From Treponema sp. (GTDB lineage Bacteria; Spirochaetota; Spirochaetia; Treponematales; Breznakiellaceae): a DNA stretch of 32,646 nucleotides. The DNA is taken from NCBI GenBank assembly GCA_012517385.1, contig JAAYUZ010000033.1:1-32646 (forward strand). The letters are read 5' to 3'. Below, in pieces: positions 10,910-32,646 of this stretch (position 1 is its first letter; each line of letters starts with the position of its first letter). Below the pieces are notes generated by a model. The model was not told the origin of the DNA. It ran no database searches and saw only the letters and a program-made list of their open reading frames with translations. A program made the position numbers and the translations under genes.

Positions 10910-13336
10910 ATGGCGAGAAAACGAGCAAAAATATTTGAAACCAAATACTTTGGGTTCATCATCGGTTTGTTTGTATTTCTCGCCATCCTCCTTCTAGATA
11001 CAAGCACCGCGATTTTTTCCAATTTAAATACTAAAGCTACAGATTTACAGTTCTTTCTTAAGGGCCTGGTAACCGCAACCAGCGTACAGGAAGGGGTGAC
11101 GGTTACCGAAAAAAATCCGAAGATTTCAGATGATATTATTATTGTAGGTATAGATTCGCGAAGCCTTTCTAAATTCGGCAAATGGCCCTTTCCTCGTTCT
11201 ACCCATGCTAATCTGATTGATGCCTTTGCACGGATAAAAGATCAGAATTCAAGAGAATCTTCCATATTTCTGGATGTCTTTTTTATAGAAAATGATAGAA
11301 AAGCATCTGAAGATGCACGGCTTATTACTAGTATAGAGCAGGCAAAAACAGTCTATCTTGAAACGCTCCTCGATGTAGGTATCTCAGATTATACAAATCA
11401 TGAAACAATGCTTAAAAGACAGGCTGTGTTATTTGACCGATTTGCGGGTTTTAAAAATGTAAGCGGCCCATGGCAGGAGATGCGCGACTTTAGAAGCGTT
11501 CAGGCACCGCTTATCCCCTATGCAATGGCTGTTTCTGGATATGGGCATGCAAATTATGTCCAGGATGTGGATCAAATATACCGGCGTCAGGCACTTATTG
11601 CTAAACTAAGCACAGAAGTAGAACAGATACCATTACAGGAGTTGCAGCCTGGATATTCGATTGATGAGGCACAATACGAACGATTGGTCTGGTATGATAC
11701 GAAGAGTGAAGTACATAATATTACAACACCTGTAACTAAAGAAATACTGCAACAGCTTGAAAAGGAACTTCAAAGATCAGCTCCGCCGGTAATAATTGAT
11801 AAGGATGGGGATGGAAATCCGGATGAAGAGTATTACATTGTAAGAAAAATAAAAGATTATTTTGTTCCATCTATTACCTTAAGTCTTGCATGTAATTATT
11901 TCGGGGTTGATCTGTCAGATCTCTCTGTTGAAATCGGCAAACAGATCATCATCCCAAATCCTACTGTAAAAGATGCTAAAACAGGTAATAGGATACCCTA
12001 CAGCATTCCAATTGGTCGAGATGAATATGATAAAGAGGGGAATCTTATCAAGGCTGCACCCCGAAGGGTTCTCTCTGAAATAAAGATACCTATAAATGAA
12101 AATGGCGAGATGGTTATCAATTACATGGGATATCGGTCATCCGCCGCTCTTGATGGCTATAGGACCTTCCCGGTCCGATCCTATGCCAGTTATGCTGAAC
12201 GGGCTCCTGGTCCTAACCCTGAAACCTGGCCTAAAACAAAGGCGGTAGACAATAAAATTCTTATGGTCGGTCCCTTTGCCGATGGAATTGCCCAGGATGA
12301 AAAACCGACCCCTTATGGACTCATGTACGGTATAGAAATACATGCAAATGCTTTAAATACCATATTGATGAACAACTTCCTTATCCCGGCTCCCAAATGG
12401 ATTGAATATGCACTACTATTGTTTCTCGTCATGCTTATTTGTTTCTATACATCCCGTTATTCAACCTTATGGGGTTTTGTATCTATTTTTATTGGAAACA
12501 TTATTCTCTTTCTTACCATATCAGTTGTTTTTGAAAGAAATAATCTGGTTATAGATTTCCCAAAACCTGCCATTGCAATGATAATATCCTTTATTGCGGT
12601 TGTTTCATATCGTGCAATGACAGAAGAACGGGATAAAAAGATGATAAAAACCACCTTTGGAAAGTACGTGAGCCCGAAAGTGGTAGAACAAATTTTGGAA
12701 AATCCTCCAGAACTTGGCGGGGTAGATAAGGAACTGACAGTCCTTTTCTCTGATATCCGAGGCTTTACGACCTTATCTGAAAATATGACGCCCCAAGAAT
12801 TGGTAAATCATCTTAACGTATATTTAACCGCCATGACAGATCTAATTCTTGAGTATGGCGGTACCTTGGATAAATATGTGGGTGATGAAATTATGTGTTT
12901 CTGGGGAGCTCCCATACCGCAGGAAGATCATGCTATTCTAGCCTGTAAATGTGCCCTTAAACAAATGGAAAAATTACGTGAGCTTAATGAGCAGTGGCCT
13001 GAAAACAGGCGTATCAATATCGGAATTGGTTTAAATTCCGGGATTATGACCGTTGGCAATATGGGATCCCCCGGAAGGATGAACTACACACTCATGGGCG
13101 ATAATGTGAACCTCGGTGCCCGGCTCGAAGGCACGAATAAACAATATGGAACCGGAATTATCATAAGCGAATTCACCTATGGATTAGTAAAGGATCATTT
13201 TATAGTTCGCGAACTAGATAATATCCGGGTTAAGGGGAAAAATAAACCGGTTCTCATTTATGAACTGGTTGATGCAATTGATTCTTTAGATCCGCCGATA
13301 TTAGATACGGGTAAAAAGAAACGGAGTAGGGGATAA
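10910..13336 (+). CDS. CHASE2-domain class III adenylate cyclase
   Basis: 808 residues. A membrane helix at about 14-32 leads into an extracytoplasmic CHASE2 domain (DDIIIVGIDSRSLSKFGKWP), then three helices at about 498-568 and a cytoplasmic cyclase domain (about 605-790). The catalytic set is complete: metal-binding Asp615 (FSDIRGFT) and Asp659 (VGDE), adenine-contacting Lys655, and Asn734 and Arg738 (VNLGAR). The second purine-selecting position is Thr727 (YTLMG), as in class IIIb cyclases, so cAMP is the expected product. The sensor domain is long and carries a DxDxDGxxD loop at 297-305 that resembles a calcium-binding loop. GAGG lies five bases before the ATG. The gene follows the TPR protein by seven bases. 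Confidence 0.93.
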   Translation: MARKRAKIFETKYFGFIIGLFVFLAILLLDTSTAIFSNLNTKATDLQFFLKGLVTATSVQEGVTVTEKNPKISDDIIIVGIDSRSLSKFGKWPFPRSTHANLIDAFARIKDQNSRESSIFLDVFFIENDRKASEDARLITSIEQAKTVYLETLLDVGISDYTNHETMLKRQAVLFDRFAGFKNVSGPWQEMRDFRSVQAPLIPYAMAVSGYGHANYVQDVDQIYRRQALIAKLSTEVEQIPLQELQPGYSIDEAQYERLVWYDTKSEVHNITTPVTKEILQQLEKELQRSAPPVIIDKDGDGNPDEEYYIVRKIKDYFVPSITLSLACNYFGVDLSDLSVEIGKQIIIPNPTVKDAKTGNRIPYSIPIGRDEYDKEGNLIKAAPRRVLSEIKIPINENGEMVINYMGYRSSAALDGYRTFPVRSYASYAERAPGPNPETWPKTKAVDNKILMVGPFADGIAQDEKPTPYGLMYGIEIHANALNTILMNNFLIPAPKWIEYALLLFLVMLICFYTSRYSTLWGFVSIFIGNIILFLTISVVFERNNLVIDFPKPAIAMIISFIAVVSYRAMTEERDKKMIKTTFGKYVSPKVVEQILENPPELGGVDKELTVLFSDIRGFTTLSENMTPQELVNHLNVYLTAMTDLILEYGGTLDKYVGDEIMCFWGAPIPQEDHAILACKCALKQMEKLRELNEQWPENRRINIGIGLNSGIMTVGNMGSPGRMNYTLMGDNVNLGARLEGTNKQYGTGIIISEFTYGLVKDHFIVRELDNIRVKGKNKPVLIYELVDAIDSLDPPILDTGKKKRSRG

Positions 13337-13346
13337 TATATACTCC

Positions 13347-14021
13347 ATGATACCTAACAATATGAAGTATATCTCCATATTCTTGTTATGTTTTTCGTTT
13401 ATTTTTCTTAACTCTTGCGGCATTGAAAATTATATTTATTTAACGCCAGTTACTGCAATAACAAAAACGGCTGATACAATTTCTGTCACATTACCATTAC
13501 TATCAGATCAACCTGTTGATTATTTTTCAGGTTATACGATTTATTATAGAATATATACAAGTCAAAACAATCTAACTTCGATTATCGAAAGTTCAAACTA
13601 TGGTGATATAAATAGTGCGATGAGTACAGATTATTCAAAACTGTCACCATATATATCGACTGATAGCTTTAATTCAATTAATATGTATTATTTTTTTAAC
13701 TCCATTGGTTTTTCGCAATTACAACTTGATAATTCAGATATGATTAATTTACTAAAAACAATAAATAACTTTGAATTACAAAAAAATGAAAATGGTCTTA
13801 TTTTAAAAAATTCTTCAAATAATTATTCATTAATCAGAATTAACAAAGAGGCATTCGTATATAAAAGTGATCTTTCTGGAGATGATGTGGTAGTAATAGA
13901 AAATCACATTTCTGCATACGCTATGTTTATTATTTTTGCCTATGGAGTAGATGAATATGGATCTCCTATATTCAGCAGGCCAACTTTACTTGGGGTATTA
14001 CAGTTGCCAGCCAGTAAATAG
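13347..14021 (+). CDS. Orphan lipoprotein, AT-rich
   Basis: 224 residues with a lipoprotein signal: MKYISIFLLCFSFIFLNSC, where LNSC is a fair lipobox and Cys24 the lipidation site. Two starts are possible: ATG at 13347, or ATG at 13362, which puts the lysine right at the N-terminus. Neither has a well-spaced ribosome site; the nearest purine run (AGTAGGGGA, 13325-13333) is at the end of the cyclase gene. The mature part is rich in Asn, Ser, Tyr and Ile, and I recognise no family. Base use is far more AT-rich than in the preceding genes, and it lies at the convergent point of two transcription units. This fits a fast-evolving or recently gained surface or periplasmic protein, but a lineage-specific partner of the cyclase cannot be excluded. 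Confidence 0.75.
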   Translation: MIPNNMKYISIFLLCFSFIFLNSCGIENYIYLTPVTAITKTADTISVTLPLLSDQPVDYFSGYTIYYRIYTSQNNLTSIIESSNYGDINSAMSTDYSKLSPYISTDSFNSINMYYFFNSIGFSQLQLDNSDMINLLKTINNFELQKNENGLILKNSSNNYSLIRINKEAFVYKSDLSGDDVVVIENHISAYAMFIIFAYGVDEYGSPIFSRPTLLGVLQLPASK

Positions 14022-14122: not shown

Positions 14123-16537
14123 TTACATTTTTTCTGAATATAATTCTCTATATCTAGTAAAATAATCCGTATAGGCTCCAATCCCGTTATCGGCTAATAC
14201 GGTAAGCCTGGTTAAATCAAGCAGTGATTTGTCAGTATTTTTCAAATATGTTTCTCTGAATAATTTATCTTCATTTGCTTTAATATCAAAAACGCCTTCA
14301 TCTGTTTTATATCTATATCCCCATAGCAAGGATGGGCTTGAATATTTCTTTGATCCCTCAGGAATTGCGATCAGCAAGGCTTGCTTTATCTGTATATCCA
14401 TAGGTAACACTTTATTTAATTTATGTATAAATATGTTACTATCTATATGATTGGTAAGCTCTACGGTAGCGATTTCTTCAAGAGCTGTTACACCTATAGA
14501 TAAGGGTGCTGCTATATCAAGTCGCGGTAATGGGTTAAACCCTTCAGTAAATTGTATCGGCAGATCAGCACGGATAAAAGCTTTAGAGAATAGTTCTACA
14601 AGGCTTAAATGAGGAATAAATATCGCTGTGTGTTCTTTTGTATAAGAAAACACGATTTTATATGTTATTTTTTTTCTTACTATCATAGATGGACTTTCAT
14701 TAATAACGCCAGAAACGTTCTCAATCAAATGATAGTCTTTGTGAGCATGTATACTATTTTTAACAACATTTTCTTTGCTTCCGCAAATTCCACAGTTGTG
14801 GTTGCATTCTTCTAGACATGATGATGTCAGTTCTGAAGTCAAAGATTTTATATATTCATTTTTTAAAAAGTTTCTGGAAGTCTTACTTATAATAGAATCC
14901 CAAGGCAAATCGACATCTAGAGATCTTTCAGAAAGAAGTTCAGAAATGACTGTGTTATGTTGCTCAATTACTTGTTTCCAGATATCTCTTTTAAAATATT
15001 CATCCCACGCATCAAGTCTGCAGCCTAAAGAAAAGGCCTGTTCTATGATATCCCCTACCCGTTCATCACCACGAGATAAGATTCCTTCAATGGTTGATAT
15101 AAACGGATCATGGGTACTAACTTTAAAACCCAAGGGCCTTAAAGTATCACGAATAAATTTTAATTTATTATGTGCTACCTGTTCATCAATCTGTGCTACC
15201 CATTGATAGGGTGTGTGTGGCTTGGGAACAAAGGTTCCAATATTTACATGTATCTGAATATTAGTATTCCTATAAATATCAACGAGGAAATTAACAATTT
15301 CTTCCTCTTCATTATTATGTTCATATCCTTCTTTAAAGTTTCCAACAGGAAGCCCTATCATAAAATAAAACTTGGCGCTTTTCCATCCATGTTTTTTAGC
15401 TTCTTTTAATATAGAAATTACATTTTCTTTAGATACTTCTTTATTCAATGATAATTGCCATGCGTCAGCCGGAGTTTCTATAGCAAAGGTTAGACCGCTT
15501 TTTCTTGTTTCAGAAATACTTTCTATTAAAGGTAGAGAAAAAGAAGATACTTTTAATGAGGGTAATTGGAACGATATATGTCGATTTTTATATTTATCAT
15601 TTAAAAGTTTAATCAGTTCCTCTATACCAATAAAGTCTCCAGAGGATAGGGATGATAGGGTTATTTCTCTGTATCCGGCGGATTGAACGAATGTATCGAC
15701 TTCTTTTTCAATAGTTTCTATAGATTTCATCCGTGCTGGTCTATACCAGATACCAGCATGACAAAAGCGACATCCATTAGGGCAGCCCCTCATTATTTCT
15801 ACTGAACCATGATCTTGAATTACTTTTATAGATGGTACTGGCAAGGCTGGTATAACTTGATTTGGAGCAGCAAAATTGGTATCTATGTGCCGTTTTGCTT
15901 TTTTCCCAGGAACCCAGATTGCATCTTCTGCAGTAATTAATCTAAGCAAGTCATCACGGATTGCACCGGCTGTTTTTGCATCCCGAACCTTTTTTATAAG
16001 TTCAAAAAAGGCATCTTCAGCCTCACCAACCCAAACTGCATCGGCAAAATTCTGGAAAGGTAACGGATTTGATGCAGCAGGTCCTCCAATGATTATAATC
16101 GGATGCTCCTTAGTTCGATCTGTATTCTTAATTGGAATCCACCCACTTTTAAGAATTGAGAGCATCCCTGTTATACCTAATTCATAACCTAATGATACCC
16201 CGAGAATATCAAGCTGGAATAATGGTTTTCCCACATCAAGTGTATAAAGAGGCAAGTTTTTCTCTATTAATAGTTTTTCAAAATCTGGTGCAGGGGCAAA
16301 AACTCTATCACAGGATACATCTTCAATTTGATTCAAATTATTATACAGTATCTTTATTGCCTGGTTAGACATTCCAATCTCATAAAGATCGGGAAATGCG
16401 ATAGCCATTTTTAAAAGTTTATTTTCATGGCTGTATATTCCATATTCGCCACCGACATATCGACCAGGCTTTTCAACGTTTAATAGGTCTTTACCAATAT
16501 CTTTAATTGGATCTATATAAGTTTTTGCTGTAATCAA
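14123..16537 (-). CDS. B12-binding-type radical SAM protein fused to DUF2344 domain
   Basis: 804 residues. The N-terminal region (about 40-180, GGPAASNPLPFQNFADAVWVGEAE) resembles the cobalamin-binding-like part of TIGR03960 proteins. The radical SAM core has CPNGCRFC with Cys252, Cys256 and Cys259. A second cysteine group follows at 574-585 (CLEECNHNCGIC), probably another metal site. The C-terminus from about 624 matches the radical-SAM-linked DUF2344 (TIGR03936) family (FTEGFNPLPRLDIAAPLSIG). In many bacteria I recall these two parts as adjacent genes. The start is TTG at 16537, because a TGA lies in frame two codons upstream. That TTG overlaps the rodA stop (TTGA), so translation is coupled to rodA. 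The substrate is unknown; context suggests envelope or RNA work. Confidence 0.9.
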   Translation of the reverse strand: MITAKTYIDPIKDIGKDLLNVEKPGRYVGGEYGIYSHENKLLKMAIAFPDLYEIGMSNQAIKILYNNLNQIEDVSCDRVFAPAPDFEKLLIEKNLPLYTLDVGKPLFQLDILGVSLGYELGITGMLSILKSGWIPIKNTDRTKEHPIIIIGGPAASNPLPFQNFADAVWVGEAEDAFFELIKKVRDAKTAGAIRDDLLRLITAEDAIWVPGKKAKRHIDTNFAAPNQVIPALPVPSIKVIQDHGSVEIMRGCPNGCRFCHAGIWYRPARMKSIETIEKEVDTFVQSAGYREITLSSLSSGDFIGIEELIKLLNDKYKNRHISFQLPSLKVSSFSLPLIESISETRKSGLTFAIETPADAWQLSLNKEVSKENVISILKEAKKHGWKSAKFYFMIGLPVGNFKEGYEHNNEEEEIVNFLVDIYRNTNIQIHVNIGTFVPKPHTPYQWVAQIDEQVAHNKLKFIRDTLRPLGFKVSTHDPFISTIEGILSRGDERVGDIIEQAFSLGCRLDAWDEYFKRDIWKQVIEQHNTVISELLSERSLDVDLPWDSIISKTSRNFLKNEYIKSLTSELTSSCLEECNHNCGICGSKENVVKNSIHAHKDYHLIENVSGVINESPSMIVRKKITYKIVFSYTKEHTAIFIPHLSLVELFSKAFIRADLPIQFTEGFNPLPRLDIAAPLSIGVTALEEIATVELTNHIDSNIFIHKLNKVLPMDIQIKQALLIAIPEGSKKYSSPSLLWGYRYKTDEGVFDIKANEDKLFRETYLKNTDKSLLDLTRLTVLADNGIGAYTDYFTRYRELYSEKM

Positions 16538-17844
16538 TGTTCAAACCTTCTCACATAAATACTAAGTGATATGCCTATACCAATAAGGGCTGAAAGCAAA
16601 GATGAACCACCATAGGATAGGAAAATTAACGGGATGCCGGTAATAGGCATAATACCCATGGTCATACCTACATTAATTAAGAAATGGAATACCAGCATGC
16701 CTGAGAAGCCCGCTACAATATATGCACCAAATGGATCTGATGTTGTTTTCATTATATTCAATAATCTTAGAACGATTAATAAGAAAAGAGAAAATAAAAG
16801 AACTCCTCCAATAAATCCCATTTCTTCTGAAAATATTGAAAAAATAAAGTCAGTGCTTTGTTGCGGCAGAAAGCGGTAATGACTCTGGGTTCCCTGTAAA
16901 TATCCTTTTCCCCAAAACCCACCAGAACCTATGGCTGTGATGGACTGAATTATATTCCAGCCAGAACCTTTTGGATCTATATATGGATCTAAAAACACGA
17001 TGAGACGCATTATTTGATAGTCTTTTAAAACCCGGTGAGCAACTAGTGATGCAAGTAAGGAAATTATTAACAATGAGAGGAAATAAACAATCCAATAAAA
17101 ATAATCTTTTCTGTATCTTTTATATCCGTACCAGGCGATGCCAGATATAAGAATCATTGAAAATTCCATGATGCCTACAAATTTTAAATTCTGAAATATT
17201 TTTAAGAAAGGAAATGCGCCTTTTAAAATATGGATCTGCCAAAGGGGCAATATGGTAAAAAAGCCAATTAAACCTATAAGCAAAATTGAATACACTATAT
17301 AACGCTTGGTTATTCCTGCTATAAAACAGGTAACTAAAAAAATAGGGATAAATACTAAAGCGGTACCAAGATCGGGCTGCAATAGAATAAAAAGCATCGG
17401 GATACCAACGATACCCCCCGCAATAGTAAATCTTTTTAAATGTTCTTCTGATCTTTGGGTGCCCTCTAAATATTTTGAAAGCAGAATAATTGTAGCAAGT
17501 TTAAGAAATTCTGAAGGCTGTATTCCAAAGCTGCCAAAACCAATCCAGGCTCGGGCACCATTAACTAATTTCCCAAAAAAGACAGTATATAACACTAATG
17601 CTAAGAAAAAAGCATAAAAATATTCTGCATAATCATAGAGACGTCGATAATCATATAGAACGATGATACCTATTAAAAATATCCCAATAATTGCAAAAAT
17701 AATTTGTTTAATATATTCATTCGTCATTAACACACCAGAAGAATTAATACCCGATGAATAAATCATGAGAATACCAAAAAAAGTAAGAATTATTGTAGAA
17801 AAAAAGAGTGAAAAATCTATTTCAACTAAGCGTTTAATATTCAT
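16534..17844 (-). CDS. rodA: Rod shape-determining protein RodA (SEDS glycosyltransferase)
   Basis: 436 residues against about 370 in E. coli. RodA polymerises lipid II into glycan strands in the elongasome, paired with PBP2. Diagnostic SEDS motifs are present: GARAWIGFGSFGIQPSEFLK, LLQPDLGTALVF, FLDPYIDPKGSGWNIIQS, FLPQQSTDFIFSIFSEEMGF with the catalytic-site Asp, and GIPLIFLSYGGSS. Many hydrophobic helices are visible. Between the QPDLGTA motif (about 156) and DYQIMR (about 275) there are about 65 residues more than I expect from E. coli RodA, including two hydrophobic stretches near 221-238 and 246-268. The ATG overlaps the mrdA stop (ATGA), and its own stop overlaps the radical SAM start. 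Confidence 0.97.
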   Translation of the reverse strand: MNIKRLVEIDFSLFFSTIILTFFGILMIYSSGINSSGVLMTNEYIKQIIFAIIGIFLIGIIVLYDYRRLYDYAEYFYAFFLALVLYTVFFGKLVNGARAWIGFGSFGIQPSEFLKLATIILLSKYLEGTQRSEEHLKRFTIAGGIVGIPMLFILLQPDLGTALVFIPIFLVTCFIAGITKRYIVYSILLIGLIGFFTILPLWQIHILKGAFPFLKIFQNLKFVGIMEFSMILISGIAWYGYKRYRKDYFYWIVYFLSLLIISLLASLVAHRVLKDYQIMRLIVFLDPYIDPKGSGWNIIQSITAIGSGGFWGKGYLQGTQSHYRFLPQQSTDFIFSIFSEEMGFIGGVLLFSLFLLIVLRLLNIMKTTSDPFGAYIVAGFSGMLVFHFLINVGMTMGIMPITGIPLIFLSYGGSSLLSALIGIGISLSIYVRRFEH

Positions 17845-19715
17845 TCACGCCGCTCCCTTGGAGACATAAGATATTGTAGACCTAATGTTTTTACCGCTTC
17901 TTCATAGGTTTGCTGTGCAAATATACCTTGAAAAATAATTGCAGAGGCATAGGGTGCCCACCATTCCCATGAGTTGCTGGCTTCAACGATGATAGATACT
18001 ACAATTTGGTCATCCGGGTTATCAGAGTTATAGGGTGCGTATGCAGCAAACCAGGAATGCCATCGATCTGATAATCCAACTTCTCCAGTTCCAGTTTTTC
18101 CTGCGACTTGAACAGCCTTAATATTCATGGGGAATCTTGCAGTTCCTTCTGTTATTACAGAGCGCATATTATCGCGGACCGTTTGAAAAACTCCAGAGTC
18201 AATATCACTTTTATGCAGCACACTCGGTTTTATCGTCTTAACTATTGCACCAGAAACTGGATCCCTAATCTCTTTAAGCAGATGGGGTTGATAAATAACT
18301 CCATTATTTACCACCATAGCCACCATATTTGCCATTTGAAGCGGTGTAACCAGAGTATATCCTTGGCCGATTGACATATTCATAGTATCGCCGGCAAGCC
18401 ATTTTTCATGAAATTTACGTTCTTTCCATTGAGGGGTTGGAATAAAACCTGCAATTTCACCTGGAATATCAGTACCTGTTGGTTCACCAAACCCGAAATC
18501 TTTTGCATATGTTACAATTCTTTCCACACCTAGATAATCTCGGCCGGTTACCCAGAAATATATATCGCATGACTGAGCAAGGGCCTGCTGTAAATTTAAG
18601 AATCCATGGCCAGGTTTATGAATCCAACATTTCCAGACCCGATTACCGTAGGATATTTCACCCTTACATTCTACAGTTTTATCTGGAGGAAAGGCTTTCT
18701 CATTGAGAATCGCTGTAGACATAATTACTTTAAATGTTGAAGCTGGAGGATAACTAGATTGAATTGCCCGGTTCAATAAGGGTTTTTTGGGATCCTCTAA
18801 CAATTGTTGGTACGCAAGGGACGCATCATTTTTATTAAACAGATTAGGATCGTACCATGGATAGGAAACCATTGCAAGGATTTCACCGGTATTAGGTTTT
18901 AAAATAACCACCGATCCCATCCGCTCTCCCAGAGCCTTTTCAGCTAATGTTTGCATCGACCGGTCTATGGTGAGAACAAGATTTTTTCCCATTTCAGGGC
19001 TTTCTTTTATAGTGTTTTCTATACTTGATACCTTTTTTCCTCTAACATCAACTATTTTTATCTCCCGGCCATTTTTACCACGCAATATCTCATCATATTG
19101 TTTTTCGATACCCGCTTTCCCAATTATATCTCCCGATTGATACCCCTTATTGTATAATATTTTTAATTCATCCTTCGTTATATCACCAACATAACCGATA
19201 ATATGGGCCATGCTTCCTGTATCAACATAATTCCGTATCGGATTAGATCTCCAGCTCACTCCAGGCAATTCACTCTTTCGTTCCGCAAGCTTCGCGATAG
19301 TTTCAAAGGGTACGTTAACTGCAATATCTATCGGTTGATACATATGGTAATATTGGGTCGGTATTTTTGCATCGATTGATTTTTTAGAAATACCAATAAT
19401 ATCCGCCACATTCTGAAAAACGATGGCAATGGATTCTTTTGGAATTTCAGCTGGCGTTATTTGAACAGCAAATGAATCTATATTTAATACTATAGGCTGA
19501 TTGATATTGCGGTCGAATATTTCGCCCCGCTGGGCAGGGATGATTGAAACTTGCTGAGCAATATTTGTTGCTTTCGAGCGGTATACATTTCCTGAAATGA
19601 TCTGCATACTGAACAATCGTATGGCAAAGGCTATAAATATTGAAATGTAAATGATTTGCAATAAGGTTATTCGTTCAGCGGGTCGTTCTTCGCCGGTTGG
19701 AATTTTTAATGCCAT
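17841..19715 (-). CDS. mrdA: Penicillin-binding protein 2 (elongasome transpeptidase)
   Basis: 624 residues. PBP2 cross-links peptidoglycan on the outer face of the inner membrane and activates RodA. One N-terminal membrane helix (about 18-40) is followed by the pedestal domain and the transpeptidase. The active-site motifs are STFK (nucleophile Ser326, within YPPASTFK), SCD at 382-384 and KTG at 540-542. A TTG at 19718 would add one residue, but ATG at 19715 has AAAGGA at a better spacing of six. That ATG overlaps the mreD stop by one base (TGATG). The downstream end overlaps rodA by four bases. Beta-lactams acting on cell elongation would be expected to target it. Confidence 0.96.
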   Translation of the reverse strand: MALKIPTGEERPAERITLLQIIYISIFIAFAIRLFSMQIISGNVYRSKATNIAQQVSIIPAQRGEIFDRNINQPIVLNIDSFAVQITPAEIPKESIAIVFQNVADIIGISKKSIDAKIPTQYYHMYQPIDIAVNVPFETIAKLAERKSELPGVSWRSNPIRNYVDTGSMAHIIGYVGDITKDELKILYNKGYQSGDIIGKAGIEKQYDEILRGKNGREIKIVDVRGKKVSSIENTIKESPEMGKNLVLTIDRSMQTLAEKALGERMGSVVILKPNTGEILAMVSYPWYDPNLFNKNDASLAYQQLLEDPKKPLLNRAIQSSYPPASTFKVIMSTAILNEKAFPPDKTVECKGEISYGNRVWKCWIHKPGHGFLNLQQALAQSCDIYFWVTGRDYLGVERIVTYAKDFGFGEPTGTDIPGEIAGFIPTPQWKERKFHEKWLAGDTMNMSIGQGYTLVTPLQMANMVAMVVNNGVIYQPHLLKEIRDPVSGAIVKTIKPSVLHKSDIDSGVFQTVRDNMRSVITEGTARFPMNIKAVQVAGKTGTGEVGLSDRWHSWFAAYAPYNSDNPDDQIVVSIIVEASNSWEWWAPYASAIIFQGIFAQQTYEEAVKTLGLQYLMSPRERRE

Positions 19716-20218
19716 CAATTTTCCTTTCTAGGTGTAAGTACCTTTTTAAAAAGTTTTAAAAAAGCAAACACAAAGGGCCCTGCTATGGCATTCAGAGCAA
19801 CTTCGATCCATAAAATATTTGATGCAAAATTATAGGTTGGGGTATTTGCATTAAATAAAAAATGAATAATGCTGATAATAATTGCTTTAACAATTGTTGC
19901 TCCAGCACAAAGAAGAACCGGAAAGATAATTATATCAAGAAAAAAAGTTCCTTTCATCAATCCGATCAATGATCCAATGATTGTACGACTTAAGGCATTA
20001 AAACCTAAAGGAGCTAAGGACAAAAAGTCTAACAAGAACCCAGAGGCAAAGCCGGTAATTTGACCAGTCATCGCTCCATTAACATAGGATATATACACAA
20101 GTATAATTAATGCTATATCTGGTATTACATGAAATATGGCAATTTTTGATAACAAACTTGATTGTATTATTCCTGCTATGATTATTAAAACAGTAGCCCA
20201 GCCAATAGTTTTACTCAT
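19715..20218 (-). CDS. mreD: Rod shape-determining protein MreD
   Basis: 167 residues of mostly hydrophobic sequence with five or six likely membrane helices, the usual shape of MreD. Recognisable features are the early proline in FHVIPDIALIILVYIS and the GFASGFLLDFLSLAPLGFNAL segment typical of the family. Two adjacent ATG codons exist at 20221 and 20218; AGGAG lies three bases from the first and six from the second, so 20218 is preferred. The gene overlaps the mreC stop and runs into mrdA. MreD is the integral membrane partner of MreC in the elongasome. Confidence 0.92.
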   Translation of the reverse strand: MSKTIGWATVLIIIAGIIQSSLLSKIAIFHVIPDIALIILVYISYVNGAMTGQITGFASGFLLDFLSLAPLGFNALSRTIIGSLIGLMKGTFFLDIIIFPVLLCAGATIVKAIIISIIHFLFNANTPTYNFASNILWIEVALNAIAGPFVFAFLKLFKKVLTPRKEN

Positions 20219-21083
20219 CATCGGCTCCTGTGTTACTCTTTTCTATAACAAAGACATATTCAAGTCGGGAAAAATCGATGGAAGGTTCCAATTCCACGGT
20301 TAAAGATGTTTCATATTCCTGAAAAATTATCTTTGAAACACGTCCAATTTCGATACCCTTAGGATAAATTCCACCCAAACCGCTGGTTACGACCCTATCG
20401 CCATATTGTATTTCATCCTTCGCGCGTTTCTTTATATATTTCATGACTAAAGGACCATTAGAATCCCCCTGACCGGATACAATTCCTTCATAGAGGGATT
20501 GTGCAAAGCGGGCTGAAACATAAGAATTATAATCATAGACTGGCATTACCATGCTTTCATGACGCCCAACTTGCACTACAAGACCAACGAGCCCCTGGGT
20601 TCCATCTTGAAAAGCAATAACAGCCATGTTCTTTTTAATACCTTCTTTTATCCCCTTATCGATTACAAATGAAGAGAAAAGGTTATCTGGATCTTTACCA
20701 ATAATTTGGGCTGGAATATGCTTATAAAACAAATTTTGAGAAAAACTGAGCTGTTTTTTTAGATTGATGTTCTCCTGTTCAATATCTGCAGCACTTCTTG
20801 CCAGTTCTTCATATCGTTCTAACTGTTTCACCAATTGATCATATTCTTCTTTAAGTCTGCTTAATTCTTTTACGGAGAGAACGGTCTTTTGAACTGAGGC
20901 TGTAACTTCCTGTATCGCACCACGGATGCCTGAAAACAGAGAGAACCCTACATCCCGAACATCAATTACAAAACTACGGGTAGAAAAAAGCAAACAAGAG
21001 AAGGAAATGGTAACTAAGGCAAGAAACACATATAGGGTGTTATTAGACCTCTTAGGAGCAGGTCCATTCGTTCTTAAGGCCAT
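20211..21083 (-). CDS. mreC: Rod shape-determining protein MreC
   Basis: 290 residues: a short basic N-terminus, one membrane helix (about 17-34), a coiled coil (about 70-115) and the beta-rich extracytoplasmic domain. Family signatures include AQIIGKDPDNLFSSFVIDKG, MAVIAFQDGTQGLVGLVVQVG, GDRVVTSGLGGIYPKGIEIG and VELEPSIDFSRLEYVFVI. MreC forms periplasmic filaments that switch PBP2 to its active state. It starts nine bases after the mreB stop. AGAGG is only one base from the ATG, a tight spacing that may lower its translation relative to mreB. Confidence 0.96.
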   Translation of the reverse strand: MALRTNGPAPKRSNNTLYVFLALVTISFSCLLFSTRSFVIDVRDVGFSLFSGIRGAIQEVTASVQKTVLSVKELSRLKEEYDQLVKQLERYEELARSAADIEQENINLKKQLSFSQNLFYKHIPAQIIGKDPDNLFSSFVIDKGIKEGIKKNMAVIAFQDGTQGLVGLVVQVGRHESMVMPVYDYNSYVSARFAQSLYEGIVSGQGDSNGPLVMKYIKKRAKDEIQYGDRVVTSGLGGIYPKGIEIGRVSKIIFQEYETSLTVELEPSIDFSRLEYVFVIEKSNTGADDE

Positions 21084-21091
21084 GCCTCTTG

Positions 21092-22135
21092 TTATCCATT
21101 CAGATTATCATAGATGCTTATGGTATTATCAAAACCTTTGGCATACTCAAAGTATTTACCTGCACCAAGGGCAACACAATCGAGGGGCCGCTCTGCAAGA
21201 ATAACCGGAACGCCTGTCTCTTTTGAAATGAGTTTAGGCAGTCCTTTTAATAGGGATCCGCCGCCGGTCATAACTATACCCCGTTCAACAATATCTGCCG
21301 CCAATTCTGGCGGAGTCTGTCCAAGAGTCCGTTTTATTTCTTCTATGATTTGAGTAATCGGATCTTTTAGGGCCTCCCGTACCTCGACCGAATCGATTTC
21401 GAGCCGGCGCGGAAGCCCTGTAATTGCATCGGTCCCCTTAATTTCTACCTTTTCTATGGTTTTATCCGGTGAAGCATTACCGATTTCAATTTTTAGCTTT
21501 TCAGCAGTCTGTTCACCAATAATTAGATTATGGACACTGCGAACATGTTTAATAATTGCTTCATCAAATTCATCGCCACCAAGACGGATTGCGTTAGTCA
21601 CAACCATGCCGCCTAAGGATATTACGGAAATTTCAGTAGTACCACCACCAATATCACATATCATGTGACCTGCGGGTTCAAATATTGGAATATCAGCACC
21701 AATTGCGGCAGCAAGACTTTCTTCTATTACTTTGACATCCCGTGCCCCTGCTTTATAAGCGCTTTCTTCTACTGCCCTACGCTCAACTTCGGTTATACAG
21801 GATGGAACGCCGATTACCATTCGGGGCTTTACGAACCAATGCCGTGGAAGCACTTTAGAGATGAAATAACGGATCATCTTTTCTGTTGTTTCAAGGTCCG
21901 CAATTACCCCGTCTCGCAGCGGCCGAATTGCAATGATGTCTCCAGGTGTTTTCCATAACATCCGTTTAGCATCAGATCCAACGGCAACGACCTTTTTAGT
22001 ACCCCGTTCTACGGCAACTACCGAGGGTTCATTTATAACGATTCCTTTCCCTCGTACATAAATAAGGGTATTACAGGTTCCTAAATCTATTCCAATATCA
22101 GAGGAAAGATTGTCAAACAAATTTCCGCGAGCCAT
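21092..22135 (-). CDS. mreB: Rod shape-determining protein MreB (bacterial actin)
   Basis: 347 residues, the normal size. MreB polymerises into membrane-associated actin-like filaments that orient wall synthesis. The phosphate-1 motif [15 protein letters not shown], the [10 protein letters not shown] segment, phosphate-2 [17 protein letters not shown] and the C-terminal [20 protein letters not shown] are all intact. A start at 22141 would touch the ribosome site; GGAGG is six bases from the ATG at 22135, so 22135 is chosen. The gene follows the TPR gene by 14 bases. The N-terminal [12 protein letters not shown] keeps the amphipathic character used for membrane contact. Confidence 0.98.
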
Positions 22136-22149
22136 AAACATCCTCCGGT

Positions 22150-23085
22150 TTACATACTGAGCCGATTTCGAGCCGGCCCGTGGTTAGGATCTATTTTGAG
22201 CGTTTTACGCCATTCTGATCGTGCTTTTATGCTATCCCCTGAACTATAATAGAGTTCTCCAAGCTTAAAGTGGGCTTCTGCATTTTGATCATTATCAGCA
22301 ATAATTGCAAGGTACTGATCGATAGCTTCCTGTTGTTTCCCCTCTATAACAAGTAAAGGGGCTAACAGAAGTCGAGCACTAGATGTAAGCTCATCATCTT
22401 TGGTGCTCTCTATACATCTATATAGGTATGCCTTTGCATTATCATATTCTTCAAGACCGATATAGGATTTCGCAATTGCCAGAAGCAAGAGATCCGAAGC
22501 TGGTTTATCAGGCTGTAAGATTTCAGAGAATGCGGCTACACTGTTTCTATAATCATTAACAGATGCATAGGCCAGGCCCAGATATTCATTAAGATCGGGG
22601 GATGAAAACCCCAGATTCTTTGCTTTTTCCAGGTAAAGTATGGCTGAATCAGCAAATGAAGGACCGCTTTTAAAATAGGCCTTCCCTAAAACATAGGGTA
22701 TTCTGCCATCTTTAAGGTTAGAATCATGGAGGAGCACCTTCCGCAGGGCTGCAATACATTCATCATAATAAACCTGAGCATCCTGAGGCGCAGTTTGGGC
22801 TTCTGCTACCTGAAAAGACGCAAACCCGTAAAGCATTAGCAAGAAGGTGTCGAAAGGTTTTTTCTGCAAATTGATTTTTACTTCTCCCAGCAGTTCTTCA
22901 TACTGGCCATTATTCCATAGGGTAAGCAGATGATTTACGCTATTTGCTTTCTCGATCCGATTTTGACGAACAATAAAAAAGAGAGAAATTGACACTATAA
23001 GTAATAATCCCAAGAAGACAGCCAGCTTTATGGCCCGCTTTTTGAGTATTTCTGATGCATAGGATGAACGGGAGCGAGAAAACAT
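22150..23085 (-). CDS. TPR-repeat membrane protein heading the mre operon
   Basis: 311 residues. A basic N-terminus ([18 protein letters not shown]) precedes one membrane helix (about 19-38) and a long helical region with TPR motifs, for example [20 protein letters not shown] and [20 protein letters not shown] with the final [13 protein letters not shown]. The frame is open to a TTG at 23124, but that triplet belongs to a likely -35 box, so I use the ATG at 23085. No good Shine-Dalgarno site lies before it; see the promoter entry. Its place at the head of mreBCD-mrdA-rodA suggests an envelope scaffold role in cell elongation. No specific function is assigned. Confidence 0.85.
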
Positions 23086-23094
23086 GGTGGTTAT

Positions 23095-23124
23095 GATATA
23101 ACCTGTTTTTGAATAAAAAGTCAA
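23095..23124 (-). promoter_or_regulatory. Candidate promoter of the TPR-mre-rodA operon
   Basis: Read on the minus strand, TTGACT at 23124-23119 (5 of 6 to the -35 consensus) is followed after 18 bases by TATATC at 23100-23095 (4 of 6 to the -10). Transcription would start around 23088, only a few bases before the ATG at 23085, giving a nearly leaderless mRNA. The -10 lies inside a perfect inverted repeat, GGTTAT-GAT-ATAACC (23089-23103), which could be an operator. Confidence 0.4.
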
Positions 23125-24418: not shown

Positions 24419-26155
24419 TTAGTGATCCAGATAATCCTTAAGCTTGCGGCTTCGCTTCGGATGTCGCAGTCGCCTCAAAGCTTTAGCTTCTATCTGCCGG
24501 ATTCGTTCCCGTGTTACGTTAAAATACAAACCTACCTCTTCCAAGGTAAGTGAATATCCATCATCGAGTCCAAACCGCATTTTTAAGACCTCCTGTTCAC
24601 GGGGAGGAAGGGTTTGTAATACAGTACGCAGCTGTTCCTGCAATAAGGTAAATGCGGTCTGGTTCGCAGGATTTTCAACATCCTTGTCTTCGATAAAGTC
24701 CCCAAGGAGAGAATCTTCTTCTTCACCGATAGGAGTTTCAAGAGAAATCGGCTCTCTAGCCACATTTTTAACCGATTTTACCCTTTGGGCGGTCCATCCA
24801 AGCCGTTCTGCAATTTCTTCATCCGTAGGTTCCCGACCAAGAACCTGCATAAGCTGACGGGACTCCCGCACGACCTTATTGATCTGTTCTATCATGTGTA
24901 CAGGTACCCGAATAGTACGTGCCTGATCGGAAATAGACCGGGTAATGGCCTGTCGAATCCACCAGGTAGCATAGGTAGAAAACTTATATCCCTTGCGGTA
25001 CTCAAATTTCTCTACAGCTTTAATGAGCCCGATATTTCCTTCCTGAACAAGATCAAAGAAATGGAGGCCCCTGTTAGTATATTTCTTTGCAATTGATACA
25101 ACGAGCCGAAGATTCGCCTTTATCAGCCGATCCTTGGCGCTCTTCATCATGATCCGGCCCCGGTTAATTTCCTTGGCCATTTTATTTATGTTTTCAATGG
25201 GCTCTTCAAATTCAGCTTCCATCTGGTGCATTTTCTTTTCTGTTACCTGGATATGCCGAATTAACTCCTTAATTTCATCAGAAGAGAGTCCGAGCTCCTC
25301 TTCTTTCCGTTCCCGTTCTTCTTTAATGGTCAAACTTCGACCCAGGGAACGTAATTCTTTAACAGATCCAACCCTGAGCCGTTTTTCGATTCGTTCCTGT
25401 TCCTTTTTATATTTTTTTATTTTTTTTGCGGCTTGAACAAATTTTTCAGAAAAACTACTGATTTCTTCTGGATGTATTTCAGCCTCAGCGAGAATAGGAA
25501 TAATTTTCTGACGAAGCGCTGCCAGTTCGCTGTTATCAAAAATATCCCCGCCTCTGGCGAGAATATGCCGCTTCATATCCATGTATTGTTTTAAATCGGG
25601 ACCTACCTGTTTCAGGGTATCCCGGTAATATTGATTCAGCCGGCGGCGTTCGGCCATATATTCAGTAATTTCTTTTTTAGAAAGGTTCATTTCCCGCGGG
25701 TCCTTCTTAGAAAAGGCTCGCTGGGCTATTGCATAGTATTCGGGAATTATCATTCCGGATTTTTTAACGACCCGTTTTATGATATTTTCCCCTTCTTCCA
25801 TCTGTTTGGAAAGCTCCACTTCCTGTTCTGCGGTAAGAAGATTTTCCTTTCCAATTTCACGCAAATAGAGTCGTATTGGATCATCAACAGAAGATTCTTT
25901 GTCATTATATACAAGTCGTTTTTTTTCTGTTTCTGAAGTCTTTTGTTCTTCGACTTCCTCTTCTTCGGATAAATTTTCTTCTTCGATAAGCTGGATGTTG
26001 TTTTCTTCCAGAAGAGCCAATACTTCTTCAATTTTTTCCGAATTAACGATGTGTTCCGGCAAAAAATCCGAAAGTTCGTCGTAGGAGAGGCTCTTTTTTT
26101 CTTTAGCGTATTCGATCAGCTTCGCAACTGCGGGGTCAAGCTGCAATTCCGTCAT
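24419..26155 (-). CDS. rpoD: RNA polymerase primary sigma factor RpoD
   Basis: 578 residues. This is the housekeeping sigma factor that directs RNA polymerase to promoters. A region 1.1-like N-terminus ([15 protein letters not shown]) and an acidic linker come first, then region 1.2 ([20 protein letters not shown]), the non-conserved insert, region 2 ([20 protein letters not shown] and [19 protein letters not shown]), region 3 and region 4 ([40 protein letters not shown]). The region 2.4 and 4.2 helices read like standard sigma-70, so -35 TTGACA and -10 TATAAT promoters are expected. The ATG overlaps the dnaG stop (ATGA), so the two are translationally coupled. Confidence 0.98.
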
Positions 26156-27990
26156 TCCTGGTCTTCCTTAAGCCGACGTAACTCGGCATCTATATGAACT
26201 TTTTCGGACAGGAGTTCTTCTATCTGCTGTTCAGATTGAAGCCCCCCTGTCCGTGCGGACCTGAGCTTAAGTATAATCTCTGCCCGGCGCCGCTCAAGGC
26301 GTTTTTCACGAATTCTTTTAATTCCGTCTAATACAAGCTGCTCCGGGTTCTGAGAAAAGGCCTTTGAGGAAGTCTTTTCTAAAACAAAATTCCGGAGTTC
26401 ATCATCCTGTATCTGATTTAATAGTCCATCAACATCCTGTATTTCATTCCTGTAACATTCTTCCAAGGCAATAAATAGTTCCTTTGCCCGTGGATCTTCA
26501 ACCTCCTCTATAGACAAGGATGATCGTAACCGAGGATAGAGGTTACGGTTTGAAATTATGGTCATCAACAGAAACAGTTCATCATTCATGCGGATCGGAG
26601 CTTTACTGCGGATCTCCGCAGGCTTTTGCTGTTCTAAACGATCAAGGCTGCGTTGTTTGTCCGCAGCACTTTTTTTAGAATAGGTTTCAAAATCCCGCAG
26701 AACTGCCGTCCGGTCGACCCCAAAAGTGTCAGCAATGGAACCCATACATCCATCTCTTGAAACTTCTGAATCCAAAGTTTCCAGATACGGAAAAAAGAAG
26801 GCCACTGCTTGAGCAAGGCCTTCTGTATGAGTAATATCGAATAGGGCTCGAGCTCGACCCACAAGATAATCGAAGTCATTTATAAAACATTTTACATATT
26901 TTTGCAACGCCCCTGGGCCATCTTCTTTTAAAATATCTGCAGGATCTTTGAAAATAATCCCCTTTTCTCCCGTTTTTTCCATACTGATGATTCTGCAGGT
27001 CAGCCCATTACGGCGACAGGTCAAAATTCCCTTGATTGTTGCGGCCTGTCCTGCTGGATCGTTGTCAAATACAAGGTACGCCGTCTTTGCCCATTGTCTG
27101 AGTAAACGGGCTTGTTCGTCCGTAAAGGCGGTGCCCAGGGGGGCTACAGCGGTCCCTATTCCCGCCTGATGGAGGGCAATAACATCCATATAGCCTTCAC
27201 AAATATGTACTTCTTCGGATTGCCGGATCTGCGGCAGGGCTATTTCTATGGCATAGAGGGTTTCTCTTTTTTTATAGAGGTTCGATTCGGCGGAGTTTAG
27301 GTATTTTGGACCATCACCCTGTAATAATCGACCTCCAAAGGCAACTGTTTGTCCCTTTTTATCTGATATAGGGAACATGAGCCGATCAGCAAAAAATGAT
27401 ATCCGTGTATTTTGACGGGAAAAGAGCCCGCTTTTACTAAGGAACTCCTCAGAATAACCTTTTTTTTGTAAAAAATTAAAAAGCCATTGCCGGTCAGAGG
27501 GTGCATATCCCAGACGAAATTTGCGTATCATTTCGTCTGAAACACCCCGTTCACGGACATAGGTAAGGGCTTTTTTTCCCGCTTCAGTAGCGGTGAGAAT
27601 GTGATGAAAACTGATGGCTACCCGGCGGTATAACTCTGCCAAATCTTCCCGTTGCTTTGTCCGATTGGTTTCTTCAGGATCAGGGGAACCAGCTTCATAT
27701 ATAACGGGAATGTTAAGTTTTTTTGCAAGCAATTCCAGAGTTTCCGGATAGGAAAGTTTTTCCAGTTCCATCACAAAGGAAATGATGCCTCCTCCCTTAT
27801 GACATCCGAAACAATAAAAAAAGTTCTTATCCGGGTCGACCGAGAAGGATGGGGTTTTTTCATTATGAAATGGACAGAGCCCCCAGTAGCGCCCTCCTTT
27901 TTTCTCGAGACGTACGTATTCCCCGATAATGGTAACCGCATCGGCCCTGCGCTGTATTTCCTGAATGGTTTCTTCAGTAATACGGCTCAT
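26152..27990 (-). CDS. dnaG: DNA primase
   Basis: 612 residues. DnaG makes RNA primers for replication. The N-terminal zinc site is Cys39, His42, Cys60 and Cys63 ([25 protein letters not shown]). The catalytic core contains the TOPRIM motifs [18 protein letters not shown] and the metal-binding [10 protein letters not shown]. The C-terminal part, which normally binds the DnaB helicase, is helical and poorly conserved. The ATG overlaps the mltG stop by four bases, and the end overlaps rpoD by four. A dnaG-rpoD pair is the core of the classic macromolecular synthesis operon; rpsU is not present here. Confidence 0.97.
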
Positions 27991-29069
27991 TTACTGCCCG
28001 CACTCCCTTTTACATAGATTACGCCAGCTTTAATATGTTCATCCAGGGTTTTCGAGAAACGGTGGCGACCTTCATTGGGATCAACAAGGCGAAAATAAAG
28101 AAAATTAGTTTGGGCTGGGTAAAACACAGCCCGTAATGCCACAAGTCCTGGATTAGAGATTGGTCCTGGTGGCAATCCTGCTCTGACATAGGTATTAAAG
28201 GGATTTTGTATGGCAATATCCTTAAAATAGAGCACTTCGGGGTGGGGCTTCCCTTGTATTTCTGTAATGACATATTCTACGGTTGCGCAGGACTGCAGGG
28301 CCATGCCGATCTTAAGCCGGTTATAGAATACACTTGCCATCAGAGGTGCCTCATCATCAACCCGGTATTCCCGTTCAATAATTGAGGCAAGAATAACCTT
28401 TTCATGTAAATCCTTTGGCAACATATTCTGTGATTCGGGGGCTATCTGTTTCAGTTTATTAAAAAAATTTTCTGTCATGAGGGAAATTATTTTTTCAGGA
28501 TTAAACCCCTTAGGAAACAGGTACGTATCTGGGAATAGATATCCTTCGAAGGATGAACTGGGAATTTGATACTTTTCCAGTAATTCACGGCTTGTTGCTG
28601 CAAGCATGAAATCCCGGCTCTCACAGATTCCAGATCGTTCCAGAATCTGGCTGATTTTTGAAAGGGTTGCCCCTTCAGGGATAGTAACGCGAATTTGTAA
28701 CTGCTGTCCCTTGGCAAAACGTTGATACAGCGTCAGAAGCGTCTCGGGACCTTTGATAATAAAAAATCCGGCTTTGATGGGCTCTTTGGCCATTCGATTT
28801 ATAAGGTTCCATGCGAAGTATGAACGGATAAGACCTGCTGTGGCCAGTCGTTTGCCCACACTCTGGGCTGATTCTCCCTGGTAAATTTCTATCAATATAG
28901 ACCCATCTTCCTGTTTTTCAATGCCCCGCTCAAGCTCTGGCCTCATGTTTGACCATGCGGGGGCTGAATTTACATAGGCAAATAGAGAAAGTCCTGTGAC
29001 AATGATCACCAAGATGCTGCCCACAATCCAGGCTGCTATTCGAAACAACAGTTGTAAAACCCTTGGCAT
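27987..29069 (-). CDS. mltG: Endolytic murein transglycosylase MltG
   Basis: 360 residues. MltG cleaves nascent glycan strands at the outer face of the inner membrane and sets their length. One membrane helix (about 10-33) is followed by a LysM-like part and the YceG catalytic domain. Family motifs are SSFEGYLFPDTYLFPKGFNP, LASIIEREYRVDDEAPLMASVFYNRL with the expected catalytic Glu, and NTYVRAGLPPGPISNPG. The conserved QTDPTV segment reads QSCATV here. A GTG at 29075 overlaps the ompA-like stop (GTGA), but the ATG at 29069 has GAGG five bases upstream and is preferred. It sits in one operon with dnaG and rpoD and links wall growth with replication and transcription genes. Confidence 0.95.
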   Translation of the reverse strand: MPRVLQLLFRIAAWIVGSILVIIVTGLSLFAYVNSAPAWSNMRPELERGIEKQEDGSILIEIYQGESAQSVGKRLATAGLIRSYFAWNLINRMAKEPIKAGFFIIKGPETLLTLYQRFAKGQQLQIRVTIPEGATLSKISQILERSGICESRDFMLAATSRELLEKYQIPSSSFEGYLFPDTYLFPKGFNPEKIISLMTENFFNKLKQIAPESQNMLPKDLHEKVILASIIEREYRVDDEAPLMASVFYNRLKIGMALQSCATVEYVITEIQGKPHPEVLYFKDIAIQNPFNTYVRAGLPPGPISNPGLVALRAVFYPAQTNFLYFRLVDPNEGRHRFSKTLDEHIKAGVIYVKGSAGSK

Positions 29070-29071
29070 GC

Positions 29072-32000: not shown

Positions 32001-32646
32001 GGCCCCTGCCGATCCTTCTCACCCCTGCTCAATGTGACCGCAGTTTCAATACCTATTCCCTGGGACCAGACAGGCTGAACCCTAAAGCGAGGGATGAACC
32101 CCTGTTCGCTCCATTTCAATGCTAACGATATAGCCGGAAAGAGAGAGTTCATTTCTCCATTAAACAGCGCAAGATTCCAGTTTAGAGATAGGGTAAGGAT
32201 GTTTCCCAAGGTTATCGTTCCCGAGGGCTGTATCAAAAACTCCTGGAAAGCGGGGCTTGCCAACTGCAGGGCTCCAGCAATTTCAACAGGATTGGTAAAC
32301 AGCAGGGTTTTCCAACCCGTAACAATAGTAAATGGATAGGGGGTTTCGGTTCCATTACCTACATTTATTATGCTGCCAAAGAGGCTGCTCCCTCCCGCTC
32401 CTAAATTGGGAAAATCCTGTTGGAATCCTAAAGAAAATCCCATCCCCCATGCAAAAGCAGTAAGCCCCAGACCAGCATAAAAGGTATCCCCCAACCTTTT
32501 TGATATACCAGTGGAAAGGCTCATTCCCTCATCGCTTTTCATTTCTGGTATTAATTTGGGGCTTGCATGCCCTTCTATTCCGCCCCACAGAACTCCAAAA
32601 GAAAGCGGATAGACCGCTGCGCCAGAAATATAAGCCACAGCCCCCA
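29072..32646 (-). CDS. Large outer-membrane protein: barrel-like domain, seven Ig-like modules, OmpA domain; 5' end outside window
   Basis: At least 1188 residues; the frame stays open to the window edge and no signal peptide is seen, so the N-terminus is missing. Counted from a GTG at 32638, residues 1-225 are rich in alternating aromatic strands (GLGLTAFAWGMGFSLGFQQD), suggesting part of a beta barrel. Residues 315-1060 hold about seven FlgD-like Ig modules of about 100 residues, each with a WDG-type turn (378, 489, 590, 695, 799, 908, 1016) and several with SPNGDG-like loops (329, 750, 854, 964). The end (about 1070-1188) is an OmpA peptidoglycan-binding domain (RIRIEGHG, LSLDRARAVMAALVERGI, NRRVEFILMR). 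It probably ties the outer membrane to the wall. The stop lies next to mltG. Confidence 0.9.
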   Translation of the reverse strand, partial: GAVAYISGAAVYPLSFGVLWGGIEGHASPKLIPEMKSDEGMSLSTGISKRLGDTFYAGLGLTAFAWGMGFSLGFQQDFPNLGAGGSSLFGSIINVGNGTETPYPFTIVTGWKTLLFTNPVEIAGALQLASPAFQEFLIQPSGTITLGNILTLSLNWNLALFNGEMNSLFPAISLALKWSEQGFIPRFRVQPVWSQGIGIETAVTLSRGEKDRQGPAIELAKPLEMVYSAKTRPFINLDILIKDDGPIKTWELSIQDEQGLSRFTKSDPQPKNTALVRVPISIPLDTTWPDGEYRLFISAQDIHGNESTRTLSFNVDSTPPQATLIADTIFSPNGDGVRDLLKILQSGTKEDLWTGTIQNKEGIPVRTYSWEAMSPPEFVWDGRDSTGTVVSDGTYTYTLSSIDMGGNSITTTTGPIYVDAKPRRLQISLSSGAMSTEPSSPFGTIQARFSDYILEGLTNWTIKVVNAQGDSFRSWLGSRDRLDQFPSILQFNGLSDQKEPIPDGTYRFEVSMEYTNGDTLIQRSPFFTVQSQKPAGLVRASRSSLSFNNNEGITLYHDLSPEAEWRGFIRDANQHIIKSFNLGRNTEAVVPWQGDTDSGQLAEAGTYSYVAEGINSVGLTGRTNPIRIVVEPLQKGTLLLQSSAQLFSSRSGEGRVLFTPRYQDIGTITNYQFTIRNTQSGAVVKEDTGTLPGTFNWDGRDSLGILSPDGSYQAQLRLALANGSILSATSQPIILDATPPQAKVTAEPVIFSPNGDGKQDAATFTIGADGGNHWTGSVITSDGRVIKSFNWKGNPPASIIWDGTDDGNSHAPDGTYRFRLEGLDLAGNRTVVESTPVTLDARRPAATITSDLTAFSPNKDGFADSVKIRLVSAFTDGLAHFIVEIRDRNGTRVRRLTEGTHLDQSAQFLWDGSLDDGLTIALDGEYTPWAQLEYAKGDQITLSGKAIRLDRTPPNISISLGPQPFSPDGDGVNDVLSIKLSAEDASEINGWKLSILDPAGSIFTSFSGKTLPPEPILWDGYNLNNELIEAAQEYSYIVQVRDVLGNMATKTGSLSTDVFVIKDGDRLKIRISSIVFPPNSSNLFGMDNETNQRNRAILDRLAEVLKKYGSYRIRIEGHGVNLSGTEREERTELEALSLDRARAVMAALVERGIEKNRLEAKGLGGREPLVPHTDEANRWKNRRVEFILMR

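Follow-up and report, generated by a model that had tools for sequence, protein, structure and literature searches.

The closest described systems

Four groups of described proteins can be compared with the product of a gene in the window (the whole stretch of DNA analysed here, 32,646 nucleotides of Treponema sp. contig JAAYUZ010000033.1), which was recognised as an open reading frame with profile matches at 14123–16537 on the minus strand. It encodes a fusion protein of 804 residues, starts with TTG and is the last gene of an mre-mrdA-rodA run. The modelled folds suggest that it is probably a radical S-adenosylmethionine (SAM) enzyme that modifies RNA and has an inactive TruA-like arm. The first group of relatives is the family to which the protein belongs, TIGR03960 (rSAM_fuse_unch) with TIGR03936/DUF2344 (PF10105): both models match in the same order, a cysteine cluster is included and the fused form is common, but the window protein has, like its near relatives, a short tail where DUF2344 would end. 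The family spans many bacterial phyla.

The second group consists of cobalamin-dependent radical SAM enzymes. MgmA, TsrM, CysS and OxsB (of which MgmA and CysS use cobalamin) rank high among the fold matches of the front part, whereas the fusion protein has in addition the cysteine cluster and a TruA-like domain, and its own cobalamin use is a prediction. The third group, the tRNA methylthiotransferases MiaB and MtaB, shares with it the radical SAM core, a fold match and a weak profile match; however, the fusion protein has no three-cysteine N-terminal domain, and no TRAM domain is among its listed Pfam matches. Three cluster-binding cysteines in the N-terminal domain are presumably the mark of the methylthiotransferases MiaB, MtaB and RimO, the last of which modifies ribosomal protein S12. 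The fourth group, the pseudouridine synthases TruA, PUS1, PUS3 and PUS10, resembles canonical DUF2344 over almost the full length of its predicted fold and with detectable sequence similarity, but DUF2344 lacks the catalytic aspartate of the R-T-D-x-G motif of TruA and comes with a radical SAM enzyme, either in one polypeptide or as a partner.

The fold link itself is not new, since PMC7955657 already names DUF2344, together with PseudoU_synth_1, among the Pfam families that split the pseudouridine-synthase domain. A search of a limited paper collection by family names returned no functional study of TIGR03960/DUF2344, searches by function terms were likewise fruitless, and the passages of PMC12548448 on the essential RodA, PBP2 and Mre proteins of C. 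difficile do not mention the family.

DUF2344 as a predicted TruA-type domain

For the fold work we used a canonical stand-alone DUF2344, that of Tissierella (L082), whose model had a pLDDT of 94.8 and a pTM of 0.89. In a Foldseek search of the PDB, ranks 1–21 were all pseudouridine synthases (TruA 1vs3 with E=4.5e-8, PUS3, PUS10 and PUS1). VIA-align, for which a best Z of 7 to 8 is noted as typical of non-helical models with no clear match, gave Z values of 12.0–14.7 across its first 15 rows with almost the whole model covered (PUS10, Z 14.7, 210 residues, root-mean-square deviation 3.6; TruA 1vs3, Z 12.7, 187 residues, deviation 3.5). By sequence alone, the DUF2344 profile placed TruA first among PDB chains (E=2.3e-4), and a local hhalign comparison with TruA of the window's relatives (30 sequences, one of which, L150, was not TruA) gave E=5.6e-5 and a probability of 66% over 65 columns.

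In the hhalign alignment the TruA motif R-T-D-x-G-V faces P-L-x-x-G-x of DUF2344. The column of the aspartate was occupied by S, P, G, A or T in 38 of 38 DUF2344 sequences and by Asp or Glu in none of them, and the glycine of the motif was present in all 38. The models and this column suggest that DUF2344 has the pseudouridine-synthase fold but, by the aspartate test, would not have the catalysis of these enzymes.

The TruA-like fold was found for the canonical domain of L082, and the copy in the window corresponds to the first part of that domain, likewise lacking the catalytic Asp. It covers residues 627–723 (14369–14659, minus strand) and matches PF10105 with 95.7 bits (cut-off 23.8) at model positions 1–97 of 176. 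Residues 732–804 (14126–14344, minus strand) form the short tail, which was modelled with low confidence and is alike in near relatives. A frameshift as the reason for the short end was rejected: the other reading frames hold no continuation, and the near relatives have similar tails.

The radical SAM half, the cysteine cluster and the fused form

The fusion protein scored over both curated cut-offs of its family pair, with 516.5 bits for TIGR03960 (cut-off 462.3) and 98.4 bits for TIGR03936 (cut-off 71.9); the match to TIGR04014 was weak (49 bits, cut-off 360). Its front half consists of a cobalamin-binding-like N-terminal domain, Radical_SAM_N2 (PF19864, residues 61–210, 15908–16357, minus strand), and the radical SAM core (PF04055, 67.8 bits, residues 246–402, 15332–15802, minus strand). 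The core carries the CxxxCxxC motif of the superfamily for a [4Fe-4S] cluster (C252/C256/C259, 15761–15784, minus strand), which was invariant in an alignment of 46 sequences. The model of the full protein (pLDDT 82.3, pTM 0.85) matched MgmA (E=3.6e-13) and TsrM best, next MtaB, AprD4, OxsB, CysS, MiaB and RimO (4jc0), and further down lipoyl synthases. The tentative assignment of the cobalamin domain comes from this whole-protein fold match and the family name, no B12-binding family being among the listed Pfam matches. The three N-terminal cluster cysteines of MiaB, MtaB and RimO are absent, with a single cysteine (C76) ahead of C252.

The preliminary description of this locus regarded a four-cysteine cluster between the two parts, C574-x3-C578-x3-C582-x2-C585 (14783–14818, minus strand), as an extra feature. 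We rejected this, as the TIGR03960 match reaches residue 585, which is model position 598 of 605, with all four cysteines inside, and in the 46-sequence alignment the columns of C574 and C582 were invariant and those of C579 and C585 at least 90% conserved. A motif of three or four cysteines behind the core is conserved in most family members read. A four-cysteine pattern search found it in 60/80 loci of a scan of named genomes and in 18/30 loci of the window's phylum, which undercounts the cluster because many Firmicutes have three cysteines. It was wholly lost in four loci (L026, L031, L032 and L033, families f31, f23 and f39). The cluster-less families f31 and f23 also have ksgA directly upstream, and f39 does not.

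Both samples have limits: the named-genome scan comprised the best 80 of 590 confirmed matches, not a random choice, and included at least one Spirochaetes genome (L035), and the counts for the phylum sample of 100 genomes are affected by contig ends and incomplete genomes, the 30 loci read being the best-scoring ones. TIGR03960 was over the cut-off in 64/100 phylum genomes, and 69 are counted here as gene-bearing with five partial or sub-threshold cases. The fused form was seen in 29/30 phylum loci, the remaining one being cut by a contig end, and in 53 of the 80 named-scan loci, where 26 were separate (a TIGR03960 frame under 720 residues) and one was again cut by a contig end. Twenty-five of the separate loci belonged to Firmicutes or Thermotogae and one to an uncultured bacterium; the scan reached Deltaproteobacteria/Desulfobacterota, Firmicutes, Calditrichota, Nitrospirae, Armatimonadota, Aminicenantes, Elusimicrobia, Thermotogae and others, with one locus titled Spirochaetes. 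Outside Firmicutes and Thermotogae, fusion is thus the usual state, whereas the preliminary description had the parts as often separate neighbours.

Neighbouring genes and the proposed function

The commonest neighbour in the named scan was the gene of RNase E/G (identified by TIGR00757, 527 bits), which in 45/80 loci lay on the same strand no more than 1.5 kb downstream (44/74 when loci with less than 1.2 kb of downstream DNA are set aside). Genes of the ribosomal proteins L21 and L27 followed downstream within the fetched DNA in 13/80 loci, and in Desulfobacterota loci such as L060 the run goes on with rnpA, yidD, yidC, jag/EloR and mnmE. In the window's phylum, ksgA, the gene of the 16S rRNA dimethylase, was directly upstream in 12 of the 69 gene-bearing genomes, which are all 12 gene-bearing genomes of families f12, f23, f31 and f35. 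The profile matches of the two genes were 26–315 bases apart; in L115, L119, L120 and L124 the genes themselves overlap or are at most 14 bases apart, with the called starts in L120 overlapping more.

These RNA- and ribosome-related neighbours, together with the TruA-type fold of DUF2344 and the likeness of the radical SAM half to MgmA, TsrM, CysS, OxsB and the tRNA enzymes MtaB and MiaB, argue for an RNA-modifying enzyme. The substrate would most likely be rRNA, given ksgA and the genes of RNase G and ribosomal proteins nearby, and next the anticodon arm of tRNA, which is kept open because of the TruA fold and the likeness to MiaB. The N-terminal half, a cobalamin-binding-like domain and the radical SAM core, would do the chemistry, possibly with cobalamin; as a first guess this would most likely be the methylation of a base carbon, with sulphur transfer by way of the three- or four-cysteine cluster less likely. 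The C-terminal DUF2344, as a dead TruA-type fold, would hold the RNA.

That the pair specifically C-methylates RNA by cobalamin-dependent radical SAM chemistry, with a dead pseudouridine synthase as RNA-gripping arm, is a tentative proposal that we consider possible but doubtful. We know of no RNA C-methylating radical SAM enzyme with such an arm. If the broader RNA reading is right, radical SAM enzymes would gain a member, perhaps one that uses cobalamin, that is guided to its RNA by an inactive pseudouridine synthase. A concrete candidate reaction, the conversion of N6-threonylcarbamoyladenosine (t6A) to N6-hydroxynorvalylcarbamoyladenosine (hn6A) in tRNA, is a long shot. According to passages of PMC6313347, Thermotoga maritima contains hn6A, and in 2018 the way in which it is made was described as unknown; T. 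maritima matches both family models. However, the same passages give T. maritima and Thermodesulfobacterium commune as the only bacteria with hn6A, whereas TIGR03960/DUF2344 is carried by many more, which weakens the candidate; archaea make hn6A, yet DUF2344 matched in none of four archaeal control genomes; and t6A enzymes take hydroxynorvaline, as PMC10702137 states.

Several observations weigh against an RNA-modifying enzyme with a TruA-like arm. RNA binding does not follow from a TruA-like fold, the end-to-end hhalign comparison of DUF2344 with TruA reached a probability of only 19%, and RNA binding by the window copy is less credible because its DUF2344 is incomplete. Since the front half also matches the folds of the dehydratase AprD4, of RimO, which acts on a protein, and of lipoyl synthases, methyl transfer is a guess. 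RNase E/G was over the cut-off in 0/100 genomes of the window's phylum, with 11 weak matches; it is therefore not a required partner, and we rejected it as an obligate one. The neighbours include wall genes too, and a short paralogue without DUF2344 stands directly after ftsZ in one genome, another envelope setting.

Among the alternatives, an enzyme that modifies a ribosomal protein or a ribosome-assembly factor, and whose TruA-like domain docks on rRNA, is unlikely, though the likeliest of them. RimO offers a model for it and is among the fold matches, and the L21/L27/Obg/RNase G neighbourhood would suit it, but the three N-terminal cysteines of RimO and MiaB are missing from a protein with one cysteine before C252, and a protein substrate is nowhere indicated. 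Slightly less probable still is a methylthiotransferase-like insertion of sulphur into tRNA near the anticodon, with the second cysteine cluster as sulphur source. The fold matches to MiaB and MtaB, the TruA-type domain and the conservation of the three- or four-cysteine motif in most members read are consistent with it, whereas the loss of the cluster in four loci, the lack of a three-cysteine N-terminal domain and the absence of TRAM from the listed matches argue against it.

The link to rodA

The preliminary description placed the protein in cell elongation, with start-in-stop coupling to rodA taken as a sign of a fixed ratio with the wall polymerase. The physical link was confirmed and recurs: the fusion gene was directly behind rodA on the same strand in 23 of the 69 gene-bearing phylum genomes, that is, 22 plus G067, whose cut rodA sits at a contig end (L018). 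No direct link was seen in the other 46, some of which may hide one behind contig breaks; for G013, G023 and G085 no rodA position was listed, and the flanks of G013 and G023 (L005 and L017) are without rodA. No genome had both rodA and ksgA directly upstream. In a search of 29 genomes of near relatives, rodA was directly upstream in 20/23 loci, while in the other three the sequence upstream (753, 786 and 29 bases) held no rodA match. The 20 linked loci comprised five with a start-in-stop overlap, nine with other spacing and six with no clear start, so that translation in a fixed ratio with RodA is not a generally conserved trait.

In the named scan, a RodA-like gene was upstream on the same strand in 7 of the 69 loci with at least 1.5 kb of upstream DNA. 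It was directly upstream in two, L035 (Spirochaetes, with the gene order of the window, in keeping with Spirochaetota as the window's phylum) and L096 (Aminicenantes, with the order mreB-mreC-[mreD-sized gene]-mrdA-rodA-fusion), and 1.8–5.2 kb away in the Firmicutes L051, L086, L095, L108 and L113. RodA/FtsW-type matches were present in 100/100 phylum genomes, 71 of them over the RodA cut-off, and hence also in the 31 in which no fusion gene was found. Three of these 31 (G019, G031 and G056) are single contigs with RodA over 400 bits. Thus, the neighbourhood is genuine, but it is neither general nor needed for RodA, and the scatter without a rodA link that would make it incidental was largely what the survey found.

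An enzyme made in step with RodA that acts on the envelope (a peptidoglycan precursor, a lipid or an elongasome protein) is therefore quite improbable, for although the direct links in the phylum and in Aminicenantes, the more distant RodA-like genes of Firmicutes and the paralogue directly after ftsZ favour it, most gene-bearing genomes show no link, 12 of these having ksgA in its place, the start-in-stop overlap is infrequent, RodA occurs where the fusion gene was not found, and DUF2344 has the fold of an RNA enzyme. Of the wall-acting interpretation the physical link to rodA stands, real and recurring, but the proposed tie to the wall is weak; the domain evidence points to RNA, and both the fusion and the cluster are ordinary for the family. 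Asked of RNA instead of the wall, the question of function becomes directly testable. For a putative RNA-modifying enzyme, the place behind rodA would be a partial survival of an old neighbourhood and not a sign of wall action. The simplest history, we infer, is an old cluster of mre-mrdA-rodA and radical SAM-DUF2344-RNase G-L21-L27 that was broken up differently in each lineage, the gene being behind rodA because this order was partly kept.

Gene layout at the locus

The stretch 14123–17844 of the preliminary description covers two genes: the fusion gene and rodA (16534–17844, minus strand; TIGR02210 with 384.7 bits, PF01098 with 289.4 bits). The minus-strand run consists of a TPR protein gene (22150–23124, from a profile match), mreB (21092–22141), mreC (20211–21083), mreD (19715–20221), mrdA, which encodes PBP2 (17841–19718; TIGR03423 with 625.8 bits), rodA and the fusion gene, the three mre genes being identified by Pfam and NCBIfam profiles. 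A TPR protein ahead of mreB was also found in L128, with relatives in L129 and L131.

Both overlaps of the preliminary description were read in the DNA: TTGA at 16534–16537 (minus strand) joins the TGA stop of rodA and the TTG start of the fusion gene, and ATGA at 17841–17844 joins the mrdA stop and the rodA start. As mreD and mrdA likewise overlap by 4 nt, the operon is tightly packed throughout this part and the junction at the fusion gene is nothing special. The TTG was the sole in-frame start codon found ahead of a conserved RY motif, and AGAAGG (16546–16551, minus strand), 8 nt ahead of it, may act as a Shine-Dalgarno sequence. A scan for promoters and terminators gave 30 promoter-like and 5 terminator-like sites, which was not above shuffled sequence.

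On the plus strand, 10910–14021, a CHASE2-guanylate cyclase gene and the gene of a 224-aa protein, which had no Pfam or NCBIfam match at E<=0.001, converge on the fusion gene. Upstream of the mre genes (24419–32638, minus strand) are genes of a sigma-70 factor, DnaG primase, a YceG-like protein and an 1188-aa OmpA/FlgD-Ig protein, with 4-nt overlaps between neighbours.

Paralogues

Short TIGR03960 paralogues of about 455–517 aa, below the family cut-off, were found in five genomes. In G003 (L164, 4843–6207) the paralogue is directly after ftsZ at the end of a run of an ftsW-like gene, a 266-aa gene, ftsA and ftsZ, and is thus a second radical SAM relative that closes a wall/division cluster; in G016, G039, G061 and G068 it is about 3.4 kb from an ftsW-like gene.

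The window's own genome has a second, diverged TIGR03960-like protein on contig C130 (L168, 6492–9032), with 847 aa, a CMACGAC cluster and 109.6 bits against TIGR03960, below the cut-off. A DUF2344-like C-terminus was considered for it and rejected, as hhalign gave a probability of 0.2% and E 0.29, no detectable similarity. Its called start overlaps by about 11 bases a DEAD-box RNA helicase gene, whose best NCBIfam match is CshA, below the cut-off.

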